This document shows, one piece after another, positions 5,701-56,799 of a DNA stretch of 64,000 bases. Below the pieces are notes generated by a model, which did no database searches, was not told the origin of the DNA, and saw only the letters and a program-made list of their open reading frames with translations. Source of the DNA: Priestia megaterium NBRC 15308 = ATCC 14581 (GTDB lineage Bacteria; Bacillota; Bacilli; Bacillales; Bacillaceae_H); the NCBI RefSeq assembly GCF_000832985.1, contig NZ_CP009920.1, positions 4,334,501 to 4,398,500 of the forward strand, in the 5' to 3' direction. The translations under genes and the position numbers were made by a program. Position 1 is the stretch's first letter, and every line of letters begins with the position of its first letter.

Positions 5701-6312
5701 ATGTTTACAGTGGTTATACATGCTTTATTGTTAGCATTCGGTTTGATTTTACCTTTAGGGGTACAAAATGTGTTTGTTTTTAATCAAGGAGCCAATCAAC
5801 GAACGTTCAAACAGGCGCTTCCCGTAGTTTTCACGGCTTCTGTTTGTGATACGATTTTAATTCTAGTAGCAGTGCTGGGAGTTTCAGCAGCAGCCGCTGC
5901 TTTTTCATTTTTTCAAACGCTTATTTTTGGAATAGGTCTTCTTTTTTTAGCGTATATGGGCTTTGTGACGTGGAAGAGCAAACCGTCAAAAACGTCAGTA
6001 AAGGAAGGAATGACGGTGAAAGCACAAATTTTATTTGCTGCTTCTGTATCTCTGCTAAATCCTCACGCGCTGATGGATATTATGGGCGTGATTGGAACAA
6101 ATTCTCTACTGTACAGCGGAAAGGAAAAGTGGGTTTTTACGCTGGTGACAATATCCGTTTCATGGATATGGTTTTTGTCCTTAGCTTTTACAGGAAAAGC
6201 AGTAGGAAAAATGGATTCAAATGGGAAAATAATGATTTGGGTGAATAAGGCTTCTGCATGTATGATTTGGGGAGTAGCTCTTTACATGGCAAAAAGTATG
6301 TTTTTTCAGTAA
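5701..6312 (+). CDS. LysE/RhtB-family amino-acid exporter
   Basis: 203 aa membrane protein with about six hydrophobic segments. The N-terminus ALLLAFGLILPLGVQNVFVFNQGA and the NPHALMD segment near residue 120 are family signatures. Start ATG 5701 follows AAAGGAG. LysE proteins export basic or other amino acids and related metabolites. Divergent pairing with a PLP-sensing MocR regulator suggests induction by an amino acid or vitamin B6-related compound; substrate unknown. Confidence 0.85.
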   Translation: MFTVVIHALLLAFGLILPLGVQNVFVFNQGANQRTFKQALPVVFTASVCDTILILVAVLGVSAAAAAFSFFQTLIFGIGLLFLAYMGFVTWKSKPSKTSVKEGMTVKAQILFAASVSLLNPHALMDIMGVIGTNSLLYSGKEKWVFTLVTISVSWIWFLSLAFTGKAVGKMDSNGKIMIWVNKASACMIWGVALYMAKSMFFQ

Positions 6313-26346: not shown

Positions 26347-27462
26347 CTAATTACTTAGATAACGATCTAGCTTAGTAATGTTTTCAGATTCATATTTCTT
26401 TGTAATATGAAGATATACATCAGCTGTCATTTTAATGTTTGTATGTCCTAGCCGATCACTTACAAATTTAATATCAGCTCCGCTCTCTAATAACATAATT
26501 GCATGAGTATGGCGTAAACCGTGAGGGCTTATGTGATGCAGTTTAGCTTTGTTGGTAATAGCCTTCATAATATCGTTAATTCGAAATTCACTAAGCGCTT
26601 TACCATTGGCTTGGGTAATCATGTACTCTTGTTCAATATAACTAGCTCCATATTTAAGTTTATTTCTTTTTTGCCAAGTTTGATATTTTTTTAACTCAGT
26701 TACCAATGTATCATCAATACTTATTGTCCGCATACTGCGTTTCGTTTTAGGAGGCTTTACGCCGTGACTGCTCCGTGTTTTAGTGATGCTAATAGTTTTA
26801 TCTTTAAAATTAATATCGTCCCAATGCAATGCAATTAATTCACCTTTTCTCATGCCTGTCCGCAAAAGGGTAATAGCTACGATATATTGATAAAAAGGGC
26901 ACTGTTTTGCTGTATCCATAAAAATGGTAACTTCATCTCTTGTAAGATAATTAATTTTTCTCTCGGAAAGATCCTTTTCTTTTTTTATAGAGATATTTCT
27001 ATATTTGTTGTAGGTTAGCATTTCTAGCTCTACCGCTTTATTTATAGCAATACAAAAAATCGAGTGAATAGCTTTTACTGTACCTAGTGAATAATTCTCA
27101 GTTAATCTATTGATGAATTTCTGATATTCTAGTCTAGGTAATTGATTAAGCTTGAAATCACCTAAGTAAGGGATAATTTGATTATTAACGTAGGTTTTTC
27201 TGTTTTTTAATGTTCGCAGCTGAACTTGACTACCATATACCTCGAGCCATTCGTTAAACCAATCTTTAATTAATTTTTCCCGGTTCTCTAAAAGGGAATG
27301 TTTGCCCAAATATATTTGTTTTTCTAATTCACTGGCTGCAAGTTTAGCTTCTGATTTAGTTCTAAAACCACCTTTTGATATTTCTTTCGTTTTTCCACAA
27401 GCAGGATCTACATATCTAATTCTGTATTCCCACTTCTTTCCTCGCTGGCGATAGCTTGCCAA
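26347..27462 (-). CDS. int: Tyrosine integrase
   Basis: 371 aa from TTG 27462, preceded by AGAGGTGA; the longer frame to 27516 lacks an RBS. N-terminal arm-binding domain (SYRQRGKKWEYRIRYVD), SAM-like core-binding domain (about 60-160) and catalytic domain with Arg in TGMRKGELIALHW, HGLRHTH and the nucleophile Tyr in VYLHI near the end. Tn916/phage-type. Integrates and excises the prophage that follows. Confidence 0.93.
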   Translation of the reverse strand: MASYRQRGKKWEYRIRYVDPACGKTKEISKGGFRTKSEAKLAASELEKQIYLGKHSLLENREKLIKDWFNEWLEVYGSQVQLRTLKNRKTYVNNQIIPYLGDFKLNQLPRLEYQKFINRLTENYSLGTVKAIHSIFCIAINKAVELEMLTYNKYRNISIKKEKDLSERKINYLTRDEVTIFMDTAKQCPFYQYIVAITLLRTGMRKGELIALHWDDINFKDKTISITKTRSSHGVKPPKTKRSMRTISIDDTLVTELKKYQTWQKRNKLKYGASYIEQEYMITQANGKALSEFRINDIMKAITNKAKLHHISPHGLRHTHAIMLLESGADIKFVSDRLGHTNIKMTADVYLHITKKYESENITKLDRYLSN

Positions 27463-27542
27463 TCTAATCACCTCTTTAAAAAATATTAAGTCAATCGATA
27501 AGAATTTCTGTTTCACCTCCTTTAAGTAACTTGTGTTTAAAA

Positions 27543-39390: not shown

Positions 39391-39618
39391 ATGAGGGATG
39401 ATAAGTATACACTAATCTATGCATCTAATATTCCAGAACCTAAACAAGACTTATTATGTATCATATTGGAAGATATTAATAGCGTACCTAAAGATAAGGA
39501 TGGAGCAGTGATTGGTAAGGCAAAAGGTAAACATCCAGAAGGTATGATTGTTATAGGAGATAAACCTTATGAAGATTACTTTCGAGTCCATACACAAGAT
39601 GAGAATAAGGTTAAGTAA
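39391..39618 (+). CDS. Hypothetical phage protein before HNH
   Basis: 75 aa, RBS AAAAGGTGG. YTLIYASNIPEPKQDLLCII, acidic. Its stop overlaps the HNH start (TAATG), so the two are coupled. No family. Confidence 0.6.
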   Translation: MRDDKYTLIYASNIPEPKQDLLCIILEDINSVPKDKDGAVIGKAKGKHPEGMIVIGDKPYEDYFRVHTQDENKVK

Positions 39619-39938
39619 TGAAAGAGTATAAGACAAAGGAACAGAAGTTAAAGTTCTACAAGTCAAAAGAATGGAAACAGCTAAGACTTAAAGTATTAGA
39701 ACGTGATAATTATGAATGCCAAGAATGCAAACGTAATGGATTAGTTTACACAGATAATCATAATCCTGATAAACATAAACGTTTAGATGTTGACCATTTA
39801 AAAGAGATTGAAAATTTTCCTGAGCTTGCTTTGGATATTGATAATTGTGAAGTGAAATGTGTAAAATGCCACAATAAAAAGCATAATCGTTTTAAATTTA
39901 AAAAGAAAAATAATAAATGGAACGATGAGAAATGGTGA
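39618..39938 (+). CDS. HNH endonuclease (packaging-associated)
   Basis: 106 aa. Zinc Cys pair CQECKRNG (about 35-42), HNH core DVDHLKEIE...DIDNCEVKCVKCHNKKH. In cos phages an HNH protein lies just before terS and is needed for terminase cutting; the order here is the same. Not intron-located, so not a homing enzyme by position. Confidence 0.88.
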   Translation: MKEYKTKEQKLKFYKSKEWKQLRLKVLERDNYECQECKRNGLVYTDNHNPDKHKRLDVDHLKEIENFPELALDIDNCEVKCVKCHNKKHNRFKFKKKNNKWNDEKW

Positions 39939-45185: not shown

Positions 45186-45485
45186 TTGGAAATCACAGAT
45201 AAATTACTTCAGGAATTTAAAGATAGAATGCATTTTACACATAAAGGGGAGGACAGCAATTTAAAAGAATTGTTGTCCTTTTCTATTGACGATATTACAC
45301 GGAAATGTGGAGCATTTAACATTGAAGAAAACAAGGGAGCAAAAGAATTAGTCTTTGAGCGTACCCGCTACGCTTACAATGATGCTCTTGAATACTTTGA
45401 CAAGAATTTTCAAAGTCAAATTAACAGTGTAGGTTTTTCTATAACTATGGGAACTACAGAAGGTGATCCAGATGCAGCCATTTAA
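45186..45485 (+). CDS. Head-tail connector (gp6-like)
   Basis: 99 aa from TTG 45186 (AAAGGAGCTGAAG upstream). Helical protein with LLQEFKDRMHFTHKGEDSNL and RYAYNDALEYFDKNF, fitting gp6-type connectors that sit under the portal. Confidence 0.8.
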   Translation: MEITDKLLQEFKDRMHFTHKGEDSNLKELLSFSIDDITRKCGAFNIEENKGAKELVFERTRYAYNDALEYFDKNFQSQINSVGFSITMGTTEGDPDAAI

Positions 45486-45840
45486 ATATACGCCTCCAAG
45501 AATTCATACAGGGGAATTAAAAACATGGGTTACTTTTTATGAAGCTAAAGAGAACGAAGGGCCATTACCAGGAGAGAATCCAAGGAACGTCCTTTATGAA
45601 TGTTGGGCCAAAGTTGATGAAGTATGGACTAAAGATATAGAAATTGCCAAGTCAAATGGTACTTTATCAGACTTAACCATTTCTATTAGAGATCCTAGAG
45701 GTGATTATTCACCAACAAACAAACATTATGTGCAAGTTCATACCCCTGAATATGAGGGTTTAAGATACAACATTAAACAGGCTTTTCCTGACTTACAGAA
45801 CCGAGATTTCATTAAGGTTATAGCCGAGGTGTCAAAATGA
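45472..45840 (+). CDS. Head-tail adaptor/stopper (SPP1 gp16-like)
   Basis: 122 aa from ATG 45472 (AAGGTGATCC upstream). Starts MQPFKYTPPRIHTGELKTWV, with FYEAKENEGPLPGE and RDPRGDYSPTNKHYVQV; the SPP1 gp16/head-closure pattern. Confidence 0.8.
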   Translation: MQPFKYTPPRIHTGELKTWVTFYEAKENEGPLPGENPRNVLYECWAKVDEVWTKDIEIAKSNGTLSDLTISIRDPRGDYSPTNKHYVQVHTPEYEGLRYNIKQAFPDLQNRDFIKVIAEVSK

Positions 45841-46229
45841 GTGTTCAAATTAAAGGTTTAAATAACCTGTTAGCGGATTTAGAAAAACGCCTTGGCCCTG
45901 CTAAAGTAAAAAGTATTAGTGACCAGGCTTTAAAAGAGGGCGCAAAAGTTTTTGTAAAGGAATTAAAGGCGCAATTTGAATCCTTTAAAGATACTGGTGC
46001 ATCCATTGATGAAATTACGATTTCAGAGCCAGAGTATGTTGCTGGTGTAAGAACAATTAAAATACATTGGCGTGGCCCTAAAGACAGGTATCGGATCATT
46101 CACCTTAATGAATGGGGAACGGTTAAAAACCCTAACCCTAAAGGTAAAGGAGCTATTGCCAGAGCCATGCGTAATGCGGAAAATGCCTATAAAGCAGCGG
46201 TGAGAGAAGCTGTAAGGAGAGGTATTTAA
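45837..46229 (+). CDS. Tail completion protein, HK97 gp10 family
   Basis: 130 aa, ATGA overlap with the previous gene. VQIKGLNNLLADLEKRLGP at the N-terminus and HLNEWGTVKNPNPKGKGAI (gp10 core) are diagnostic. Confidence 0.87.
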   Translation: MSVQIKGLNNLLADLEKRLGPAKVKSISDQALKEGAKVFVKELKAQFESFKDTGASIDEITISEPEYVAGVRTIKIHWRGPKDRYRIIHLNEWGTVKNPNPKGKGAIARAMRNAENAYKAAVREAVRRGI

Positions 46230-46603
46230 TGCTCTATAAAGTATACGATGTACTAAATACTAGTGATCTTATTAAAGAAAAAGTAGGAAAACAAATTAAG
46301 TTTTATAAGTACCCATCTACTGATAATATGCAAGGTGTTTACATCGTAATTGATCCAATAGATGTACCTAAACCTGGCGATTATGCAGATAACAAATGGT
46401 TAACAGACGAATATTTTTATCAAATTGAAGTCTGGTCTATGAATCTGTTTGATACACAAGCTGTTGCAAAAGAGGTTCGTAATGTTATGTGGAACGAATT
46501 GGGTTTTGCTCAACTAATACCAGGTCTTGATGAATTTGACGAAGATACGGGGATTTACCGCGATGCTAGGCGCTATCGCGGTAAAGAGTATGTAGAAATA
46601 TAA
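46229..46603 (+). CDS. Tail terminator-like protein
   Basis: 124 aa, one-base overlap with gp10-like gene. YQIEVWSMNLFDTQAVAKEV is the pattern of DUF3168/tail terminator proteins. Position between gp10 and major tail protein agrees. Confidence 0.75.
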   Translation: MLYKVYDVLNTSDLIKEKVGKQIKFYKYPSTDNMQGVYIVIDPIDVPKPGDYADNKWLTDEYFYQIEVWSMNLFDTQAVAKEVRNVMWNELGFAQLIPGLDEFDEDTGIYRDARRYRGKEYVEI

Positions 46604-46617
46604 AGGAGGAATTTATA

Positions 46618-47226
46618 ATGGCAGAAGAACAAAAGAATTATCATGCTTCTACAGGTGTAGATGAATTTTACTATGGAGAAGTTGGAGACGGTATAGTTGC
46701 ATCATATATTGAGCGGGTAGAATATTTACAAACTATTGATGTAGATATGCCTCAAGATATTACCCGTGCTTATGGAGACAATAAAACAGCGGAAATGGCT
46801 GTATCAAATGGTGACATTAAAGTTACTTCTGCTTTTCATAAAATCCCTATGGAAGACAAACAAAGACTTTTAGGTCTTGAAGTTAAGGATGGTATTACCT
46901 ATATGGGTAGTAAAGATAATCCTCCATACGTTGCAACCATTTTTGCTAAAACGTATGAAGACGGCTCTAAAGAATATGTTGGCTTGCCAAAAGGTTTATT
47001 TACAAGACCAAAACTTTCAGGGAAAACTAAAGAGGATGGAACAGAATTTTCTTCTGAAGAAATTGAAGCACAGTTTATGGATCGTAAAATTGATGGACTA
47101 GATGAAGAGAAATCTGTTGCCTTTGCTGTTGATAAAAAAGGCGAAACGACAAATCGTGATGCATTATTTATGAAGATTTTTGGTAAGCCTTATCCTGGCA
47201 CTACTACAGAACCAGCGGGGGCGTAA
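46618..47226 (+). CDS. Major tail protein (phi13 type)
   Basis: 202 aa, RBS AAAGGAGG. FYYGEVGDGIVASYIERVEYLQ and EMAVSNGDIKVTSAFHKIP fit the phi13-family tail tube proteins. Highly expressed tube subunit. Confidence 0.85.
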   Translation: MAEEQKNYHASTGVDEFYYGEVGDGIVASYIERVEYLQTIDVDMPQDITRAYGDNKTAEMAVSNGDIKVTSAFHKIPMEDKQRLLGLEVKDGITYMGSKDNPPYVATIFAKTYEDGSKEYVGLPKGLFTRPKLSGKTKEDGTEFSSEEIEAQFMDRKIDGLDEEKSVAFAVDKKGETTNRDALFMKIFGKPYPGTTTEPAGA

Positions 47227-47229
47227 TCT

Positions 47230-47421
47230 ATGGCCAGCAATAGAAAATTTGAAGTCATTGAGGATTTTAAGGATTTACAGGATAAAAATAAAATTTATCG
47301 CAAGGGTGATTGGTACCCTAAACCGGCAAACAAAAATATTAATGATGAACGGTTGGAAGAACTTTTAACCAATAAAAACAAACAAGGTAGACCAGTTATT
47401 AAGGAATTAGAGCAAGCATGA
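47230..47421 (+). CDS. Small tail-region protein
   Basis: 63 aa. KFEVIEDFKDLQDKNKIYRKGDWYPK; such short proteins often follow major tail genes. Stop codon lies in the loop of the following terminator. Confidence 0.65.
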   Translation: MASNRKFEVIEDFKDLQDKNKIYRKGDWYPKPANKNINDERLEELLTNKNKQGRPVIKELEQA

Positions 47422-47436
47422 CGCTTGCTCTTTTTA
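47409..47436 (+). terminator. Terminator within the tail operon
   Basis: GAGCAAGC (47410-47417), loop ATGAC, GCTTGCTC (47423-47430), then TTTTT. May lower expression of downstream genes. Confidence 0.8.
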
Positions 47437-47476
47437 TTCATTTAAATAAACCAAAATAGAGAGGGAGTTTTTTAAC

Positions 47477-47833
47477 ATGGCAAATTTAAAACGTAATATG
47501 ATCGAATTAATTAAAGAGGTTTCGGAGGACGGAGAAATTCTTAAATCAGAAAAACATTTAACACCCGCATTTATCCCGCTTACTGTTGTATATCAAGCAA
47601 TGGATCTAACTGCCGATATGCAAAAAGCAAATGCTCAAAATGAGAGGGAATTAATTGATCGTTTTGTTGATTTTATTGTTCATGATGTATATAAAGATAA
47701 GTTTACAAAAGATGATTTAATTAATGGTCTACATGCTCCAGATGCTATGGAGATTTTACAAAATCAAATCCGTTTTGTGGCTGCTGGTCATCAAAGTGAT
47801 GAAACAAAAAAGTTTTTAGAGAAGAAGAATTGA
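47477..47833 (+). CDS. Tail assembly chaperone, G-type
   Basis: 118 aa. Helical, ends SDETKKFLEKKN. The lambda G equivalent, which coats the tape measure during assembly. Contains the slippery heptamer A_AAA_AAG at 47806-47812 in the correct phase shortly before its stop. Confidence 0.83.
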   Translation: MANLKRNMIELIKEVSEDGEILKSEKHLTPAFIPLTVVYQAMDLTADMQKANAQNERELIDRFVDFIVHDVYKDKFTKDDLINGLHAPDAMEILQNQIRFVAAGHQSDETKKFLEKKN

Positions 47834-48018
47834 GTGATGAAGATTTCACACCAGAAAAGCAAAAAGAATACCTAGATAATTTTATTATGTCCTTAATGAA
47901 AGAAGGTAAGGATATTAACCAGGTGTTAGATATGCCCTTTCATTTTGTCTTGGAAATCTTACGAGAGCGAAATAAACCTAAACAAGAAAAATCCTTAATT
48001 GCAGCGTTTGGTGGTTAA
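47477..48018 (+). CDS. Tail assembly chaperone GT fusion by -1 frameshift
   Basis: A slip at 47806-47812 (codons ACA AAA AAG) leads into KVFREEELSDEDFTPEKQKE and on to 48018, giving about 180 aa. The -1 frame is open throughout. The T part (MPFHFVLEILRERNK) is typical of GT extensions that bring the tube protein to the tape measure. A TTG at 47830 could begin a separate T protein but lacks a good RBS. Confidence 0.8.
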
Positions 48019-48054
48019 GGATTTTTTTGTGTTTTCAAGAAGGGAGGGTGAATT

Positions 48055-51000
48055 TTGCCAGAACGTATTGAAGGTATGTCCATTGGGCTGGAATTAGAAA
48101 CATTGCAGCTTGAACGTGGTCTAACAGGTTTGAAAGATCGGTTTAAGACTGTAAATAGTGAAATGAAAGCCAATTTATCTGCTTTTGATAGAGGGGAGCA
48201 GTCCATTGAAAAGTATGAAGTCACTCTACAAGGATTAAGTAAGAAATTAGAGCTTCAAAAGCGAATTGTAAGTGAGTCGAGGGCCGAATACGAAAAAATG
48301 GTTAAAGAGCACGGGGAAGGATCTAAGCAAGCGGAAGCAGCTGCAAGAAGTTTTAATAATCAAGTAGCCGCTTTAAATAATTTAGAACGTTCCGTTAATC
48401 GTACAAGCCACAGCTTGACAGAGTTAAAGCAAGAGCAAGGTGCTTTGCAGTCTGGTTGGAGCAAGATGGGAAGTTTGATTGATAAAACAGGTTCATCTTT
48501 AACTGGGTTAAGCTCTAAGATGCAAGGAGTCGGCTCTACTTTATCTAGCTCTCTAACATTATCTATTGTTGGAGCAGGGGCAGGGATCATGGGGCTAGCT
48601 ACTAAATTCAATGACTCTTCAGTGAAAATAAGTAACTCTTTAGGTACTTCTACTAAGGAGACAAAGAAATTTACTGAAGCCTCACGAAACATTTATAAAG
48701 ATGGGTTTGGGGAAAGTCTGGAAGAGGTAGACAATGCCCTACTTGAAACCAAGCAAAATATTAAAAATATTAATGATGAAGATTTAGAGGACATTACTAA
48801 AAAAGCTCTGACTTTAGCTAATACATTTGATGCTGATGTGAACGAAGTAACCAGAGCGGGAAATAGTTTAATTCAAAACTATGGTATGGATGCAAAAGAT
48901 GCCTTTGATCTAATGGCCAAGGGTGCCCAAAATGGCATGAATTTCTCAAAAGAGATGTTTGATAACATGTCAGAATACACCATTAGTTTTAAAGAGGCTG
49001 GTTTCTCTGCAAATGAAATGTTCTCTATTCTTTCTAATGGGGCCAAGAAAGGTTATAACTTAGACCGTTTAAATGATACAATGCTAGAATTTAAGCTTCA
49101 AAGTGAGGATTCTAGCAAAGCGTATATGGGTGCTATGGATCAAATGTCTGCAAGCACACGAAAAGTATACGAAGAGTATCAAAATGGTAATGCAACTGTA
49201 GCGGATTTATATAAAGCGGTAATACCTGACTTGCAAAAGATGAAAGATACAATTCCAGCAAAAGATTTTAATGTGATTGGGAAAGCACTTTTTGGAACGA
49301 AGTGGGAAGATCAAGGGGCCGATGTAGTTTTATCCATGAAAACCGTTAATAAAGAGCTGCAAAACAGCAAGGGTACTATGGATAAAATGACTAAGAACGT
49401 AGAACAGTCCTTTGGTGCTCGTCTAAAGTCTGTTTGGCGTGAAGCTGGTATGGCTCTGCTGCCTTTCGGGGAGATCCTTATTTCATTTGCTGAAGGTATT
49501 TTACCTAAAGTATCTACTGGTATTCAAATGGTATCTGGTTTCATTAAAAGCTTATCACCAGCAGCGCAAACAGCGGGCCTTATCTTTGCTGGAATGTTAG
49601 CGGCACTTGGGCCTGTAATTACTATGGTAGGTATGTTTGTTGGTGCTATAGGTAATCTTTTACCTGTTTTTACACCAGTAATGAATGCTATTGCACGGGC
49701 GGGAGGTTTATTAAATGTCCTAAGAGCGGGGCTTGCTGCTTTAACTGGCCCGGTGGGAATAGTTATAGGAGCAATAACCTTATTAGGTGCTGGATTTATA
49801 GCTTTATACAAGAACTCTGAAACCTTTAGAAATGGCGTTTCCGGCATAATGAGCGGTATACAAAAGTTTGGCCAGAGTGCGCTAAACATCTTAAAACCAG
49901 CTATTGAGTCCGTGAAGCAATTCTTTCAGAGTCAGCTATCCGTAATAAAGCAATTTTGGCAGGATAACTCTACTACTATACTTCAGGCCCTTTCAAATAT
50001 AGGCAGCGTAGTACGTGTAGTTTTTCAGGGTATTTCTTCTGTAATTGGCTTTGTTATGCCTTTTGTACTTTCCATAATTAAATCGGTGTGGGGAAATATA
50101 CAGGGTGTCATAAGCGGAGCGCTAAATATTATTATGGGCTTGGTGAAAGTTTTTTCTGGCTTATTTACTTTGAATTTTTCTCAAATGTGGCAGGGATTGA
50201 AACAGATATTTTCGGGATCTGTCCAATTCATTTGGAATTTTGTGCAGCTGCAAATGTTCGGTAAATTACTTTCTCTAGGAAAAGTCTTTATTACCTCTTT
50301 CCGTGGCGTTTTTGTCGGATTGTGGAATGGCTTGAAATCTTTATTTTCTTCTAGTGTAGGGGTTTTAAGGAGTTCGGTAGTTTCAGGATGGAATTTGCTG
50401 CTATCAATCACTAAAACTATTTTTAATGCTTATCGGTCATTCTTAACTGGAATATGGAATTTCTTGAAATCTATGATTTCTAAAACGGCATCTGGAATAG
50501 TTAATGCTGTCCGTGGTTCGTGGAATTTATTGAAATCTGTGACGACAACTATTTTTAATGCATACCGCTCTTTCCTTTCAGGAATATGGAATTTCTTGAA
50601 ATCCATGATTTCTAAAACAGCATCCGCAATAGTTAATGCTGTCCGTTCATCGTGGAATTCCCTGAAATCTGTAACAACAAGTATTTTTAATTCTGTCCGT
50701 AGCTTTTTAAACTCAATCTGGACAGGGATACGCAGCACAGTAACAAATTTAGCCTCCAGAACAAAAGATGGAGTAGTAAATGCTTGGTCAACTTTGAGAA
50801 ATAAAACAACTGAAATGTTTACAAGTATTAAAACTAAAACAACTAAAATTTTTGATGATATAGTTTCAGGGGCTAAAAAATTACCTGGTCGAATTGGTGA
50901 CGGTATCCGCGCAATGGCCGGGAAAGTAAAATCTGGCGTTGATGCTATTGGTAAAAAGCTTGCTGGCGGTCTTGAATCAGTTATGAATACCATTACTCAA

Positions 51001-51775
51001 AAAGGTATAAACGTTGTTTTAGATAAGATCGGTGTTAGCAAGAAAAGCCAAATTCCTAGATTAGATATTCCTGGTTATGCAACAGGTACCGATTCACACC
51101 CAGGCGGGTACTTTTTCGCGGGTGATGGAGGGAAAAACGAATTAATTCGCTTCCCGGATGGTCGTATAACAATGAGTCCTGACACTACTACTTTGTATTG
51201 GGGAGATAAAGGTACCCAAGTATTAAGCGGAAAACAAACTGATGAATTTTTAAGTATGTATCCAATGTATAAAAAAGGTACGGGCATTAAGGACGTAGCT
51301 AAAACCGCTGGTAAGTGGCTTAAAGATACAGGGGGCCAAGCATTAGCCAAAGCGGGAGAAGTAAAAGGAAAAGTGTCTGATTCCATCGGAGATATATGGT
51401 CTTATATGGATAATCCTAAAAAGCTAATGAATAAGGTCTTTAGTTCCCTTAATTTGAAAATGCCTGATGTTGGCGGGATAATGGGCGAGCTTGCTAAAGC
51501 GGGTGTCACAAAAGTTAAAGATGGTGCAGCTAACTTTATTAAAAAGATGTTCGGTGATTTTAGTGCAAGTGTAGCAGCTCCTGCTGGTAAGGGTGTTGCT
51601 AGATGGCGTCCTGTCATTCTTAAAGCTGCCGCTGTAATGAAAGAGTCAGTAACTGATGCAGATGTAAACGCCATTTTACGACAAATCCAACGGGAGTCCG
51701 GGGGTAACGAAAAAATCACTCAGTCAAGTGCCGTGTGGGACGTTAATACTGCTGCCGGTAATCCTGCACGCGGAT
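48055..51775 (+). CDS. Tape measure protein, exon 1
   Basis: From TTG 48055 (GGGAGGGTG upstream). 1240 codons: N-terminal coiled coil (1-130), the TP901 core (about 150-480), hydrophobic segments (about 490-740), Trp/Phe repeats (FLTGIWNFLKSMISKTASGI twice, about 800-880), and the first half of a C-terminal SLT transglycosylase domain with catalytic Glu in QRESGGNE. Read without splicing it stops at 51784-51786. The last base of exon 1 completes a Leu codon with exon 2. Confidence 0.9.
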
Positions 51776-52070
51776 TTGTAAAATAGTCCGGTTTAAATTG
51801 GGTGAATTGCTGGAAAATCCTAAAGCTATCTTGCTACAACGTAACCGGAAACGGTAAGCGTGAATGCTTAAAAAGTAGATAGATTGGACAATCAGCATCC
51901 AAGCTCCTGTCTCGAAAGAGTGGAGAAGGTTCAACGACTACGCTTAACCTACGGCAAAAAAGCTATGGTGATGATGCGACAGCGCCCAACACTTTAAAAA
52001 AGTGATGATATAGTCTAAACCGTTTGCTACGAGCAAAGTTAAAGTATATCGAAAGATACGGTATTAATTG
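51776..52070 (+). ncRNA. Group I intron in the tape measure gene
   Basis: 295 nt, without an ORF. Exon end CGGAT pairs with GTCCG (51786-51790), giving P1 with the required U.G at the splice site; AATA (51782-51785) pairs with the first exon 2 bases TATT as P10. Core: ATCAGCATCCAAGC, GGTTCAACGACTA (R, P7 GACTA) and TATAGTC (S, P7 partner). Hairpins ACCG-GAAA-CGGT and GTAT..-GAAA-GATAC. Ends with G at 52070. Splicing restores ARG-LLQ-YIP of the SLT motif. Confidence 0.93.
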
Positions 52071-52753
52071 TATTACAGTATATTCCTCAAACATTCAACG
52101 CCTATAAGGTCAAAGGCCATAATAATATTTATTCAGGCTATGACCAGTTATTAGCTTTCTTTAATAACACAACCTGGAGGCGTGATAACCCAGGGGGCAC
52201 GCGAGGATGGGGGCCAAGGGGCAGACGTAAATATAAAAACGGCACAGGGTTATTTGGTCACTTAGGCGGAGACGGTATCTTGGGTGATGGGGGCAAGAGA
52301 GAGCCATTCTTAATGCCAAATGGCTTATTAGGTTTAAGTCCAGATAGCGCAACACTTTACCCTAATTTGCCAAAAGGAACAATTGTATGGCCAAGCATTC
52401 AAGAATTCATTAAGGAATACAGTGAGGCAGCTGCATCCGTAATTGCTACTAATGAAAATCAAAGAACGGATGCTATGAAGTTATTAGCTTTAGCTGGAAA
52501 AGAACTTCAAAGAAATACGCGTTCAAATCCTGTATCTTCTCCTAGTGGCAATGCTTCAAGTGCAGATCAAGGGCAGCAGCAAGTACAGTCTATTCATGTT
52601 GAAAATAACATTACTGTTGCTTATTCAGGTTTGCCAAATAGGGATGATGTCATTAAGTTTGCTAAATGGCTGCAAGAGATAATGGACGAACAAACAGAAC
52701 AACAGTTAAGAGCTAAAGGAGTAAGGTGGGTAGTACATGGCCAGTCTTATTAA
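52071..52753 (+). CDS. Tape measure protein, exon 2
   Basis: Joined to exon 1 the reading frame is exactly 1468 codons (1467 aa). Exon 2 begins within the codon of GLLQYIPQTFNAYKVKGHNN, the conserved xGLxQ motif of soluble lytic transglycosylases, and goes on through GYDQLLAFFNNTTW to the C-terminal helix. No ATG/RBS at its start; TTG 52280 is not a genuine start. Exon 2 ends overlapping the distal tail gene by 17 bp. Confidence 0.92.
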
Positions 52754-54194
52754 AAGTTTTGCAGGGGTTAACACCCCTGACTTTTTAATTATAGATAAAG
52801 TTCATTTGCCGCCTTTGCCGCCTTCTGAACTAACATCTATTGATATACCTATGAAAAGCGGTTCACAGTTTGTAAATAAAAAGCATGGAAACCGAACGAT
52901 AACTATTGATTTAACCATTAAGGCACCTGACCGGGATAAAGTAATGTCTATGGGGGATCAACTAGCCGATTTTTTACATCATGATGAACCACAACCTATT
53001 ATTTTTCGGGATCTGCCAGGGCGCAAATATTATGCCATTTTAGACGGTGACACGGATCTTGAAAAGATTGAACATCTAGGAAAAGGCAGCATTAAGTTAA
53101 TTTGTCATGATCCGCACGGATATGGGGAGCAAAGATCTTATAACATCACCTCTGATACTACTATGTTAGTGAATTATGGTAATAGACAAACAGCTCTACA
53201 AATCAGCATGACATTCACTAAAAATGTAACTGACTTTTTTATAGCAACAGACAAGCAAAGCCTTTATTTTGGGGAGCCTTTTGATCCAACAGAAAAAACA
53301 GTAACCGATACAAAGCCAGTTATTTTAAATGATCCTGGCAGCAGCACAACAGATTGGTTACAAGCAACAAACTTTAATGTAGATGGTGGGCGTGTATTAG
53401 GTACCATTGGATCTAACGGTTATTCATTTAGCCAGGCAGGAAAGGATTATGGTACATTAAGCGGCTTATGGCATGGCGGCAGCATGGTACGAAGCTTAAC
53501 AAAGCAAATTCAAGATTTTGAATTAGAATGTCAGGTAGGCTTTGCATCCAGTAACAAAAATCAAAAGGGCAGAATTGAAATTTATCTGCTCGATATTAAT
53601 AATAATCAGCTAGGGAAAATAGCGATAAGAGACATTTGGAATAACTTAGATAACCCGCAGTTTGAATTTTGGGTAGGAAAAGTAAATGGTGGCGGTGTTT
53701 CTGTTACAAATACCTACGGGGCTTATAAAGGCGTATTTTCTGATTTTAACGGGATTATACAAATGGGTAGAGTCGGAAAGAAATGGCATTGCTACATTGC
53801 AAAAGTTGATCCTAACGGCAGAGCGCACACCAGACACTATAAAGCCTTTACTGATTGGCAAAACAAATATATGCAAAAAGTGGCCAAGATTCAGCTGCAT
53901 ATTGCTGCCTATGATAAAGAGCCAGCAGTAGATCAAATGTGGATCAGTAATGTTTACTTTAGAGAAATTCTATCTAAACAACCTAATCAAGTTGACTATG
54001 TTTTTAGAACAGGTGATAAGCTGCTAATTGATTGTGAAACAGGGGAAATTTATAAGAATGGAAAACTCTTTCTTGAACGGTTATATCCAGGATCAGAATT
54101 TTTACTTTTAGATAAGGCAGCAAATGGCCTTGTGGTTTCTGATTACTCAGCTATTAAGGATGGAAAAGTAACCTTTACAGAAAGGTGGCTATAG
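52737..54194 (+). CDS. Distal tail protein (Dit)
   Basis: 485 aa. The N-terminal 140 residues (PPLPPSELTSIDIPMKSGSQ, TIDLTIKAPDRDKVMSM and IFRDLPGRKYYAILDG) are the siphovirus Dit domain. A lectin-like (CBM/laminin-type) insertion at about 200-400 is probable, so this may be an evolved Dit binding host cell wall. Start ATG 52737. Confidence 0.85.
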   Translation: MASLIKSFAGVNTPDFLIIDKVHLPPLPPSELTSIDIPMKSGSQFVNKKHGNRTITIDLTIKAPDRDKVMSMGDQLADFLHHDEPQPIIFRDLPGRKYYAILDGDTDLEKIEHLGKGSIKLICHDPHGYGEQRSYNITSDTTMLVNYGNRQTALQISMTFTKNVTDFFIATDKQSLYFGEPFDPTEKTVTDTKPVILNDPGSSTTDWLQATNFNVDGGRVLGTIGSNGYSFSQAGKDYGTLSGLWHGGSMVRSLTKQIQDFELECQVGFASSNKNQKGRIEIYLLDINNNQLGKIAIRDIWNNLDNPQFEFWVGKVNGGGVSVTNTYGAYKGVFSDFNGIIQMGRVGKKWHCYIAKVDPNGRAHTRHYKAFTDWQNKYMQKVAKIQLHIAAYDKEPAVDQMWISNVYFREILSKQPNQVDYVFRTGDKLLIDCETGEIYKNGKLFLERLYPGSEFLLLDKAANGLVVSDYSAIKDGKVTFTERWL

Positions 54195-54200
54195 ATTCTA

Positions 54201-55697
54201 ATGTGGTATATTTTGAACAAAACTTATGATGCCGTAGGCGTTTTAAATAATAAGATTCCTAAAGGCTGTCCCATCCTTAGAGATAGCTGGAAAGGTCAGC
54301 TAGAGGATGGATATACGACATTAGAGTTTGATGTCTACGCTAGTCACCCACAAGCCAGCTTTTTGAGTAGGGGAGCTTTTATTATTTATACCGATAATCC
54401 AGATGGCTATGAGCTATTTAGGATTACAAAGACTACGGAGAGTCATGGGTTAGAGGAAATAAAAACAGTCTATTGTGAAACAGCAGCAACCCAGGATCTA
54501 ATTGGCCAGATTATTGAGCCAAAGTCTTTTGTCGGGGCCAGCTTATCCGATATAGTTAAATTTCTTTTGAGTAATACAGGATGGGAGCTAGGCGTTTGCT
54601 ATTATGATGAAATCATTTCAGTAGATTTTGACGATTACCCAACAGCTTTAGAAGCCATCCGAAATACGATTAAACAATTCGGTGCAGAAATTGAATTTAA
54701 GGTAGAATTCGATGGACAAGAGGTTGCGCGGAAAGTTGTAAATCTCTATGGAAAACGCGGCACAAAAACAGGTGTTAGCTTTGAATATGCAAGGAATTTA
54801 GAGGGCTTACGTAAAATTGAGGATGGAAATAAAATTGTTACGGCTATGATCGGTATTGCTAGTAATGAGGACAAAAACGGAAATCCTATTTTACTTATGA
54901 ATGCTCAAAAGAAACCTCCAAAGGGTTTTGAAGTAGTGGGAAACATGATTGTGGATGTTAACGCCCTTCAGGAATATGGGAACAATGGCGCAAATGTAGT
55001 CGATAAATTTATTGATGAAACTGCAACAAATCCAGTAGAGCTTTTTGATAACACAATAGAAGCCTTAAAAAAAGTAAATCATCCCGTTTTTTCATATGAG
55101 GCAACAGTCGTGATGATGGAGCAGATAGAAGGATATGAGCATACAAAGGTTTCTATTGGTGACACCATTTTTATAAAAGATATATCATCCGAGCCGCCTA
55201 CTTATTTAGAAGCTAGAATTTTAAATAAAGAATTAAGCACCGTCCAAAAGGATAAAGGATCTATTGTGCTTGGTGAATATGTCCCGCTTACAATTCAACC
55301 AATTCAAGCGGTAGAAAAGGCGCAGCGTACCCTTCAGTTAAAGGAAAAAGTATGGAATGCCACTATTGACCGGGCGAAAGAGGCCCAGGAAGGCGTAGAA
55401 GAAGTAAAAAAGCAAGTTCCTTATAAGGTAGAGCTTGTTTCTAGTAACGGCACAACATTTAAAAACGGCCTGATTGATACAGAGATAACAGCTATTGTCT
55501 ACAAAGGAAAAGAGAATATTACCGCTACACTTCCAAAAACCGCTTTTATCTGGACGAAAAAAGATAAAGACGGTTTTTTTGATGTGGCTTGGAATTATGA
55601 GCATGTAGGGATAGGTAACAAAATCACAGTTAGTTCGTTTGATGTTGTTCAACGAGCTGTCTTTACTTGTGATTTAGATTTACCAGAGGAAGAATAA
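54201..55697 (+). CDS. Tail-associated protein (prophage tail/endopeptidase type)
   Basis: 498 aa. LEFDVYASHPQASFLSRGAF, YELFRITKTTESHGL and YGKRGTKTGVSFEYARNLEG belong to the Prophage_tail (PF06605) family that forms the tail tip hub. Ends with an Ig-like segment. It starts 7 bp after dit. Confidence 0.87.
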   Translation: MWYILNKTYDAVGVLNNKIPKGCPILRDSWKGQLEDGYTTLEFDVYASHPQASFLSRGAFIIYTDNPDGYELFRITKTTESHGLEEIKTVYCETAATQDLIGQIIEPKSFVGASLSDIVKFLLSNTGWELGVCYYDEIISVDFDDYPTALEAIRNTIKQFGAEIEFKVEFDGQEVARKVVNLYGKRGTKTGVSFEYARNLEGLRKIEDGNKIVTAMIGIASNEDKNGNPILLMNAQKKPPKGFEVVGNMIVDVNALQEYGNNGANVVDKFIDETATNPVELFDNTIEALKKVNHPVFSYEATVVMMEQIEGYEHTKVSIGDTIFIKDISSEPPTYLEARILNKELSTVQKDKGSIVLGEYVPLTIQPIQAVEKAQRTLQLKEKVWNATIDRAKEAQEGVEEVKKQVPYKVELVSSNGTTFKNGLIDTEITAIVYKGKENITATLPKTAFIWTKKDKDGFFDVAWNYEHVGIGNKITVSSFDVVQRAVFTCDLDLPEEE

Positions 55698-55722
55698 AAA
55701 CATAGAAAAGAGTGAAGTGTTT

Positions 55723-56799
55723 ATGGCGACAGTAGCTACAGGCAGTATGACGTTAATCGATGTAACAGATGCAAAACAACTAATAGCATTTATCGGTTCA
55801 TCACAACAAAGACAAGTTATTTATAATCCTAATGGCGGTTCATATACACCGAACTATGCCAGCTCAAATAACGTGTTAACACCTCAATTGTATATTGCAG
55901 GGACTAACACAAATATTGCAGATAAAGCTAAATCAATTAAATGGTTCTATCAAACAAATAGCAGCGGCAATTTCACTGAAATTACAGCGAGTAATACAAA
56001 CTATACTCTAGGAACTACAGCACCTAAAACATTAACGATTAAGGGGAATGTACTTGCTTCTGCTAACTCAATGACTTACATGTGTGAGGTTGTTTACACA
56101 GATCCAGACACGGGCTTTGATGTAACTACAAAAGCAGAATATGAAATTATTAAAGTAACAAATGGTACAAATGGCTCCAATGGGGCAGCTGGTCAAGATG
56201 CTGTAAGAGCTGTTGTATGGACACCAGACGGAAATGTTACACGTAATTCAAATGGGACTGTCAAAGCAACTGTTGATGTATACAAAGGAGCTTCAAAGGT
56301 AACACCAACAGCTTTTAAATGGTATATCCAAGATCCTGCTGCTATAACGTCAAGCGGTGGGGATGCAGATGGGGGCGCTGGTTGGCGCTTACTTACTTCT
56401 ACTTCAAATGCAGGAGTAACAGGCTATACAACAGATACAATTACGATTCCAGCAAGTGCAATCCCTAGTGTAGAGGCTTTCAAGTGTGTTGCAACATATA
56501 ACAATGTAAAATATAACGATGTTTGTACAGTGGTAGATGTTAGTGATCCATATGTAGTTACAATCGTAGGGACAAATACTTTTAAAAACGGGCAAGGAAG
56601 TACAACTTTAACGGCTAAAGTATTCCAGGCCGGGGCTGAAGTAGATGCTGCAGGAACAGCTTTTACTTACAAATGGTCTATATATGATGCAAACAATGTT
56701 AAAAATACAAACTGGAGTAAAACAGGAAAATCAATTACCGTTACCGCAGCAGATATTAATGTTCGCGGGAATGTAACATGTGATATAGATAAAGCTTGA
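55723..56799 (+). CDS. Ig-like baseplate/tail protein
   Basis: 358 aa from ATG 55723 (AAAAGAGTGAAG upstream). The N-terminus ATGSMTLIDVTDAKQ parallels the next protein, so probably a shared attachment module. Several Ig/BIG-like beta modules (YKGASKVTPTAFKWYIQD, VFQAGAEVDAAGTAFTYKW) follow. Structural, surface exposed. Confidence 0.7.
   Translation: MATVATGSMTLIDVTDAKQLIAFIGSSQQRQVIYNPNGGSYTPNYASSNNVLTPQLYIAGTNTNIADKAKSIKWFYQTNSSGNFTEITASNTNYTLGTTAPKTLTIKGNVLASANSMTYMCEVVYTDPDTGFDVTTKAEYEIIKVTNGTNGSNGAAGQDAVRAVVWTPDGNVTRNSNGTVKATVDVYKGASKVTPTAFKWYIQDPAAITSSGGDADGGAGWRLLTSTSNAGVTGYTTDTITIPASAIPSVEAFKCVATYNNVKYNDVCTVVDVSDPYVVTIVGTNTFKNGQGSTTLTAKVFQAGAEVDAAGTAFTYKWSIYDANNVKNTNWSKTGKSITVTAADINVRGNVTCDIDKA

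Follow-up and report, generated by a model that had tools for sequence, protein, structure and literature searches.

A predicted self-splicing group I intron in a prophage tape measure gene

The interrupted tape measure gene

The window, i.e. the whole stretch of 64,000 nt analysed here, corresponds to positions 4334501-4398500 of a 5.34 Mb contig in an assembly of 5.75 Mb and 7 contigs. The host is apparently Priestia megaterium: 8000 bases searched of the 11 kb contig C1 are matched at 100% by three plasmid records of this species, one of them from NBRC 15308 = ATCC 14581. The surroundings of the intron described below read as a siphovirus-like prophage with genes for an integrase (26347-27516), an HTH repressor-like protein, an HNH protein, terminase, portal, capsid and tail tube, together with tape measure, Dit, prophage tail and amidase genes. 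The HNH endonuclease gene (39618-39938) is located directly upstream of the terminase genes, about 12 kb from the intron. The following elements have been identified in the tape measure gene:

48055..51775, + strand: exon 1, from the listed, putative start TTG 48055 to the first base of a split Leu codon
51691..51705, + strand: RESGG codons, part of the SLT domain and uninterrupted within exon 1, with Glu at 51694-51696 (RES.G invariant in 9 alignment rows)
51776..52070, + strand: predicted group I intron of 295 nt, without an endonuclease gene (RF00028 match; exact 295-nt gap relative to intronless relatives)
51784..51786, + strand: in-frame stop TAG, terminating the unspliced frame just within the intron (from the reading frame)
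52071..52753, + strand: exon 2, remainder of the SLT domain, then the C-terminus of the protein (phrog_36058 from position 595; match in L125)

Exon 1 matches PHROG tape measure families (best match 8.5e-145) as well as PF10145, and an in-frame ATG lies 7 codons downstream of the listed start TTG. A sequence-only reading of this DNA had claimed that the unspliced tape measure stops at 51786 and that splicing gives a frame of 1468 codons. Both statements are borne out: the TAG is in frame, and the spliced frame comprises 1240 + 1 + 226 codons and the stop, counted from the putative start. Exon 2 is open for 226 codons from 52073 to 52753, and its residues 1-226 are matched in L125, an IMG/VR contig that also appears as L158, the best segment being 94% identical. 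The predicted spliced codons, GGA T/TA TTA CAG, restore the conserved G-L-L-Q. It had also been proposed that the gene is split exactly at the codon of the catalytic motif. The conserved GLLQ motif is indeed hit, but the split codon is that of its first Leu, and the Glu of RESGGN (51694-51696), which we take to be the catalytic residue as in SLT enzymes, is left intact in exon 1.

The boundaries follow from a comparison with relatives that lack the insert. The flanks are 92.2% identical to L125 over 2999 nt before the site and 94.9% over 3675 nt after it, L125 carrying no insert. The tape measure gene of phage Stahl can likewise be aligned before and after the site; its blocks are 10 nt apart, equal to 8 + 2 exon bases of the window, and the gap relative to both L125 and Stahl is exactly 295 nt. 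The two exons meet at identical profile positions (595/595 in phrog_36058, 197/197 in phrog_8537). The motif around GLLQ is contiguous in 80/80, 5/5, 3/3 and 30/30 loci of four sets, in which some contigs recur; the set of 80 represents the relatives kept of 118. The junction T51775/T52071 given by the earlier reading thus agrees with intronless relatives, profiles and the contiguous motif. As the first base of the intron and the first base of exon 2 are both T, moving both cuts one base downstream would yield the same mRNA; the cut T51775/G52070 is preferred because it alone has the U.G pair and the terminal G.

Among 397 genomes of the same order, 35 contain a match to the gene. These give 49 matching rows, two of which are the halves of the window gene; no internal stop was found in the other 47, several of which cover only part of the query. 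Of 1022 matching phage records, 310 of which cover less than 80% of the query, the best 60 are each in one piece. No group I match was obtained in the intronless controls L158, L037 and L214. Exact probes of 22 and 24 bases from the intron ends have no match in IMG/VR, and the junction region has no high-identity match in the plasmid collection. Two candidates were rejected on reading: L213, retrieved by gapped patterns for an intron behind the SLT motif, is without an intron, and L124, retrieved by an earlier pattern, is unrelated.

Structure of the intron RNA

The intron is matched on the forward strand by the Rfam group I model RF00028 with 82.9 bits (E 1.4e-19, gathering threshold 50). This is the sole gathering-level Rfam match across the window, and the sole one in 51500-52400 up to E 1. 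An Infernal-type match had been foreseen for 51776-52070; the match obtained spans 51748-52039, a difference apparently due to the 5′ stem of the model being aligned into the exon. The following RNA elements have been assigned:

51771..51790, + strand: P1, CGGAU 51771-51775 with GUCCG 51786-51790, U51775.G51786 at the 5′ splice site (from the sequence; formed in unaided minimum-energy folds)
51782..51785, + strand: P10 half AAUA, pairing with UAUU 52071-52074 of exon 2 (from the sequence)
51798..51989, + strand: P3, 51798-51804 with 51983-51989, enclosing P4, P5, P6, P6a and P6b (mapping and pair counts)
51808-51813 with 51892-51897, + strand: P4 (mapping and pair counts)
51818-51820 with 51886-51888, + strand: P5 (mapping and pair counts)
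51899-51900 with 51928-51929, + strand: P6 (mapping and pair counts)
51904-51907 with 51922-51925, + strand: P6a (mapping and pair counts)
51911-51913 with 51918-51920, + strand: P6b (mapping and pair counts)
51936..52015, + strand: P7, GACUA 51936-51940 with UAGUC 52011-52015, presumably the guanosine-binding helix (mapping and pair counts)
51990..52004, + strand: P8 hairpin (mapping; poorly conserved in relatives, 69% of cells paired)
52023..52037, + strand: P9 hairpin, UUUGCU with AGCAAA (mapping; 45% of aligned cells pair)

The terminal base of the intron is G52070. It, the P1 pairing CGGAT/GTCCG with its U.G pair, the P10 pairing AATA/TATT and the P7 pairing GACTA/TAGTC had all been named beforehand and can be read directly in the sequence. 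A further hairpin with a GAAA loop lies at 52044-52059 and by eye resembles that of the nrdE-type introns L018 and L033. Extra P7.1/P7.2 stems between P7 and P3 are a hallmark of subgroup IA; here 42 extra nt are located between P7 and P3 (51941-51982), any stems within them being putative.

For P3-P9, 41 pairs have been mapped in the window intron, all of them standard pairs. Pair counts were taken from an alignment of 32 introns, namely the window intron and 31 hand-picked from 63 that had been cut, the intron of Lactococcus phage AM1 being left out; the alignment is poor at the 3′ end. In total 88.9% of 1167 cells are paired. Changes on both sides occur in 21 of the 41 pairs (shuffled mean 12) and in 111 cells (shuffled mean 40, at most 31 in slid controls), while further pair types number 49 against 44.4 in shuffles, a value matched by 26 of 500 shuffles. 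The covariation supports most of the P3-P9 helices, P8 and P9 being weak. An unaided fold of the whole RNA recovers P1, P3, P4, P5, P6a and P8, and its stability exceeds that of shuffles by a modest margin only (z -1.52, 6/100 as low); for P1 alone, z is -1.61 and 15 of 200 shuffles are as low. Judged from the sequence, 51776-52070 very likely represents a group I intron within the prophage tape measure gene, predicted to self-splice.

Related introns, mobility and history of the site

Intron-split tape measure genes are already known, and the window intron adds another case. In Vibrio phage ICP1 this gene contains three introns, the splicing of which was demonstrated by RNA-seq and RT-PCR; interruption of the tape measure gene is described there as frequent (PMC10448857). 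The ICP1 introns resemble the window intron in their host gene and, for some of them, in the lack of an endonuclease; they differ in phage, host and number, and the likeness is one of description, the section on them leaving the intron class unnamed (PMC10448857). Introns are further known in phage capsid and tail genes (PMC3706429), terminase and polymerase genes (PMC4299906, PMC8541194) and staphylococcal endolysins (PMC9430571, PMC6507118), and Bacillus flagellin, recA and nrdE introns are cited in PMC3984707. The portions of PMC7414437, PMC6195288 and PMC3888941 hold nothing further on such introns, and no mention of the window intron was found in the open-licence literature searched.

Two other split tape measure genes were observed in public records. 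The P. aryabhattai plasmid pG5MAi6_3 (L035) carries a group I intron at 5935-6185 (55.9 bits) between annotated tape measure and SLT genes, which are probably one gene, and the C. difficile CD161 plasmid (L207) carries two tandem group I matches at 361-908 (50.7 and 84.9 bits) between annotated tape measure pieces. Both interrupt the gene at positions other than that of the window intron, in L035 within an M23-like stretch by eye.

The genome itself contains four RF00028 matches, the window intron and three others. Two of the latter stand in tandem at the end of a flagellin frame (L190 6605-7383, G000:C6:3218604-3219382; 89.8 and 72.7 bits) and one lies between two nrdE-like frames (L191 4765-5134, G000:C6:1292764-1293133; 74.8 bits), the genes being assigned by eye. 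Of 101 genomes in the relatives set, 38, its own among them, contain DNA relatives of the window intron; of 29 loci fetched from other genomes, which represent the stronger matches, 26 are flagellin-like and 3 nrdE-like by motif. The Bacillales introns of flagellin and nrdE type share the same core, their best pieces being 71-84% identical to the window intron over about 130-150 nt, and introns of two recA-like Staphylococcus phage genes are 84-85% identical over 73 nt. In contrast to all of these, the window intron resides in a tape measure gene. One nrdE-type intron from a genome of the same genus (L018 1530-2000, minus strand, 78 bits) resembles the window intron in its 3′ hairpin region and has an HNH-like protein, by eye, just upstream. 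L208, a stretch of a P. megaterium plasmid that contains intron-like DNA, gave no gathering-level Rfam match.

The tree comprised 59 of 63 introns, after removal of two from L004 and that of L211 as duplicates and of L210, in which the P7 motif was not found. The window intron branches at an open fork next to the flagellin introns and falls outside a clade of 42 rows (38 flagellin, 2 phage, 2 nrdE) that has support 97/96, in a bootstrap that had not settled. AU tests gave p 0.056 for grouping the window intron with L035 and p 0.31 for the 38 flagellin introns as one clade, which is not rejected. A recent jump from host flagellin introns is not supported, as the window intron branches outside the clade of flagellin introns.

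That the intron is without an endonuclease, as first read, is confirmed by the longest ORF lying wholly within 51776-52070, which encodes 37 aa. No endonuclease gene was found next to it among the nine scanned ORFs of 45463-56799, short ORFs being left out. This differs from collaborative homing, in which a free-standing endonuclease is located beside the intron (PMC10448857). A search of the own genome for GIY-YIG, HNH and HNH_3 endonucleases yielded 4, 3 and 0 matches, respectively; the only one in the window is the gene at 39618-39938, and none could be tied to the intron.

Compared to L125, the insertion site lies in a stretch of raised divergence:

51615..52089, + strand: divergence island relative to L125 around the insertion site, intron not counted (54 mismatches in 180 positions)

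This is the most divergent 180-nt segment of 6615 compared positions, in which the overall mismatch is 6.2%; other divergent segments are 50294-50473, in a stretch with internal repeats (42 mismatches), and 52116-52295 (29). The internal repeats of the tape measure gene, seen as self-similar matches to L125, are located at 50389-50691, with divergence raised nearby. Directly outside the island the identity to L125 is 97% (306/315 before, 76/78 after). Flanking markers are often co-converted during homing (PMC3984707). The island, being centred on the site, fits what gene conversion would leave, and either a gain in the window lineage or a loss in L125 could have produced it. Of the earlier suggestion that the intron spreads by recombination or by an endonuclease acting in trans, the first part may thus fit the island, while none of the GIY-YIG or HNH matches could be linked to the second.

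A loss in L125 is a serious alternative, falling only a little short of an even chance and compatible with splicing. It holds that the window lineage gained nothing recently and that L125 lost its intron via recombination with an intronless tract. Over the 160 nt preceding the site, L126 is closer to the window (76%) than to L125 (60%), while L160 and L161 are closer to L125 (79%) than to the window (74% and 76%). In addition, L041, L042 and L102 share 79-80% identity with the L125 tract, and over the 22 nt after the site L125 is identical to L160 and L161. The same 22 nt also speak against the loss, as Stahl and Staley match the window at 91% and L125 at only 73%; moreover, no other intron-bearing allele was found at the site in the gene family among the loci examined.

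A comparable site is occupied in Lactococcus phage AM1, where a group I intron (L211:1340-2219, ends by reading) splits a LysM-transglycosylase gene and encodes a NUMOD4-HNH_3 endonuclease; the record annotates the gene pieces as separate genes. The intron scores 60.2 bits with RF00028 in a permissive search and is without a match at gathering settings on the longer locus. The intronless relatives WRP3, 949 and phiL47 read SGAYGALQLLGH at the AM1 site, and the 4 nt separating the aligned blocks in WRP3 are consistent with splicing after T1339 and G2219 of L211. The two introns interrupt their genes in the same phase and at the same place of E...G-x-x-Q (GGG T/GT TTC CAA in AM1, GGA T/TA TTA CAG in the window). 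The AM1 intron differs in its HNH gene and its host gene, which shows little sequence similarity to the tape measure gene, and it is not the sister of the window intron in the tree. Its P1, UAUGGGU/GCCCAUA, forms in the fold, with shuffles nearly as good (z -0.77, 42/200), and a candidate P10 of six pairs, GGAAAU/GUUUCC, was recognised by reading. The equivalence of the two sites rests on motif and splice geometry; for the two enzyme domains, a profile-profile comparison gave no more than a weak alignment of the Glu region (probability 7.7%). As grouping both introns is disfavoured (AU p 0.025, AM1 being a long branch), two separate arrivals appear to lie behind the shared site. The codon after the Gly of G-x-x-Q in phage lysozyme-like enzymes might then be a repeated landing site of separate group I lineages. 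The endonuclease-free window intron would have reached it with the help of an endonuclease in trans, or through reverse splicing and subsequent gene conversion, and the divergence island would be the trace of this move; this account is speculative and, on balance, rather unlikely.

Predicted splicing and its meaning

Once transcribed, exon 1 would dock with its 3′ end (CGGAU) on the internal guide sequence GUCCG, and a guanosine held at P7 would attack after U51775. The freed exon 1, guided by P10, would then attack after G52070, and the exons would be joined as GGA UUA UUA CAG. In this way the stop codon would be removed, and the product would be a tape measure protein of about 1460 residues in which the SLT (transglycosylase) domain is complete. 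By analogy with the established group I mechanism, the RNA very probably splices at these sites and unaided.

Compared to L125, dN/dS is 0.135 for the part of exon 1 compared (999 codons) and 0.13 for exon 2, with synonymous sites saturated in the last 53 codons of exon 1. Over the 69 exon 2 codons ahead of TTG 52280, the first possible separate start, the value is 0.09, so that this stretch, translatable only as a continuation of exon 1, looks constrained. A part of the constraint on the exons may date from the time before the intron arrived.

Prophages, as is generally known, often decay, and a degenerate intron that no longer splices would leave a truncated tape measure protein and a defective prophage. 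Such decay is very improbable here: every one of the core pairs is standard, P1, P10 and the terminal G agree with one another, and both exons are open and appear constrained. Translation of the halves as two proteins without splicing, suggested by the split pairs in the public annotation of L035 and L207 and by an ORF that begins at TTG 52280, can practically be dismissed, since this start drops the 69 constrained codons, including LQYIP of the motif, and would cut one enzyme domain in two.

With splicing as the preferred reading, the reading of the gene is corrected, and the two ORFs become one tape measure gene. The locus offers a clean, endonuclease-free intron with a close intronless relative, apparently in a widely used laboratory species, in which both splicing and movement are directly testable. 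The site shared with AM1 makes it possible to ask whether introns are positioned according to conserved protein motifs.
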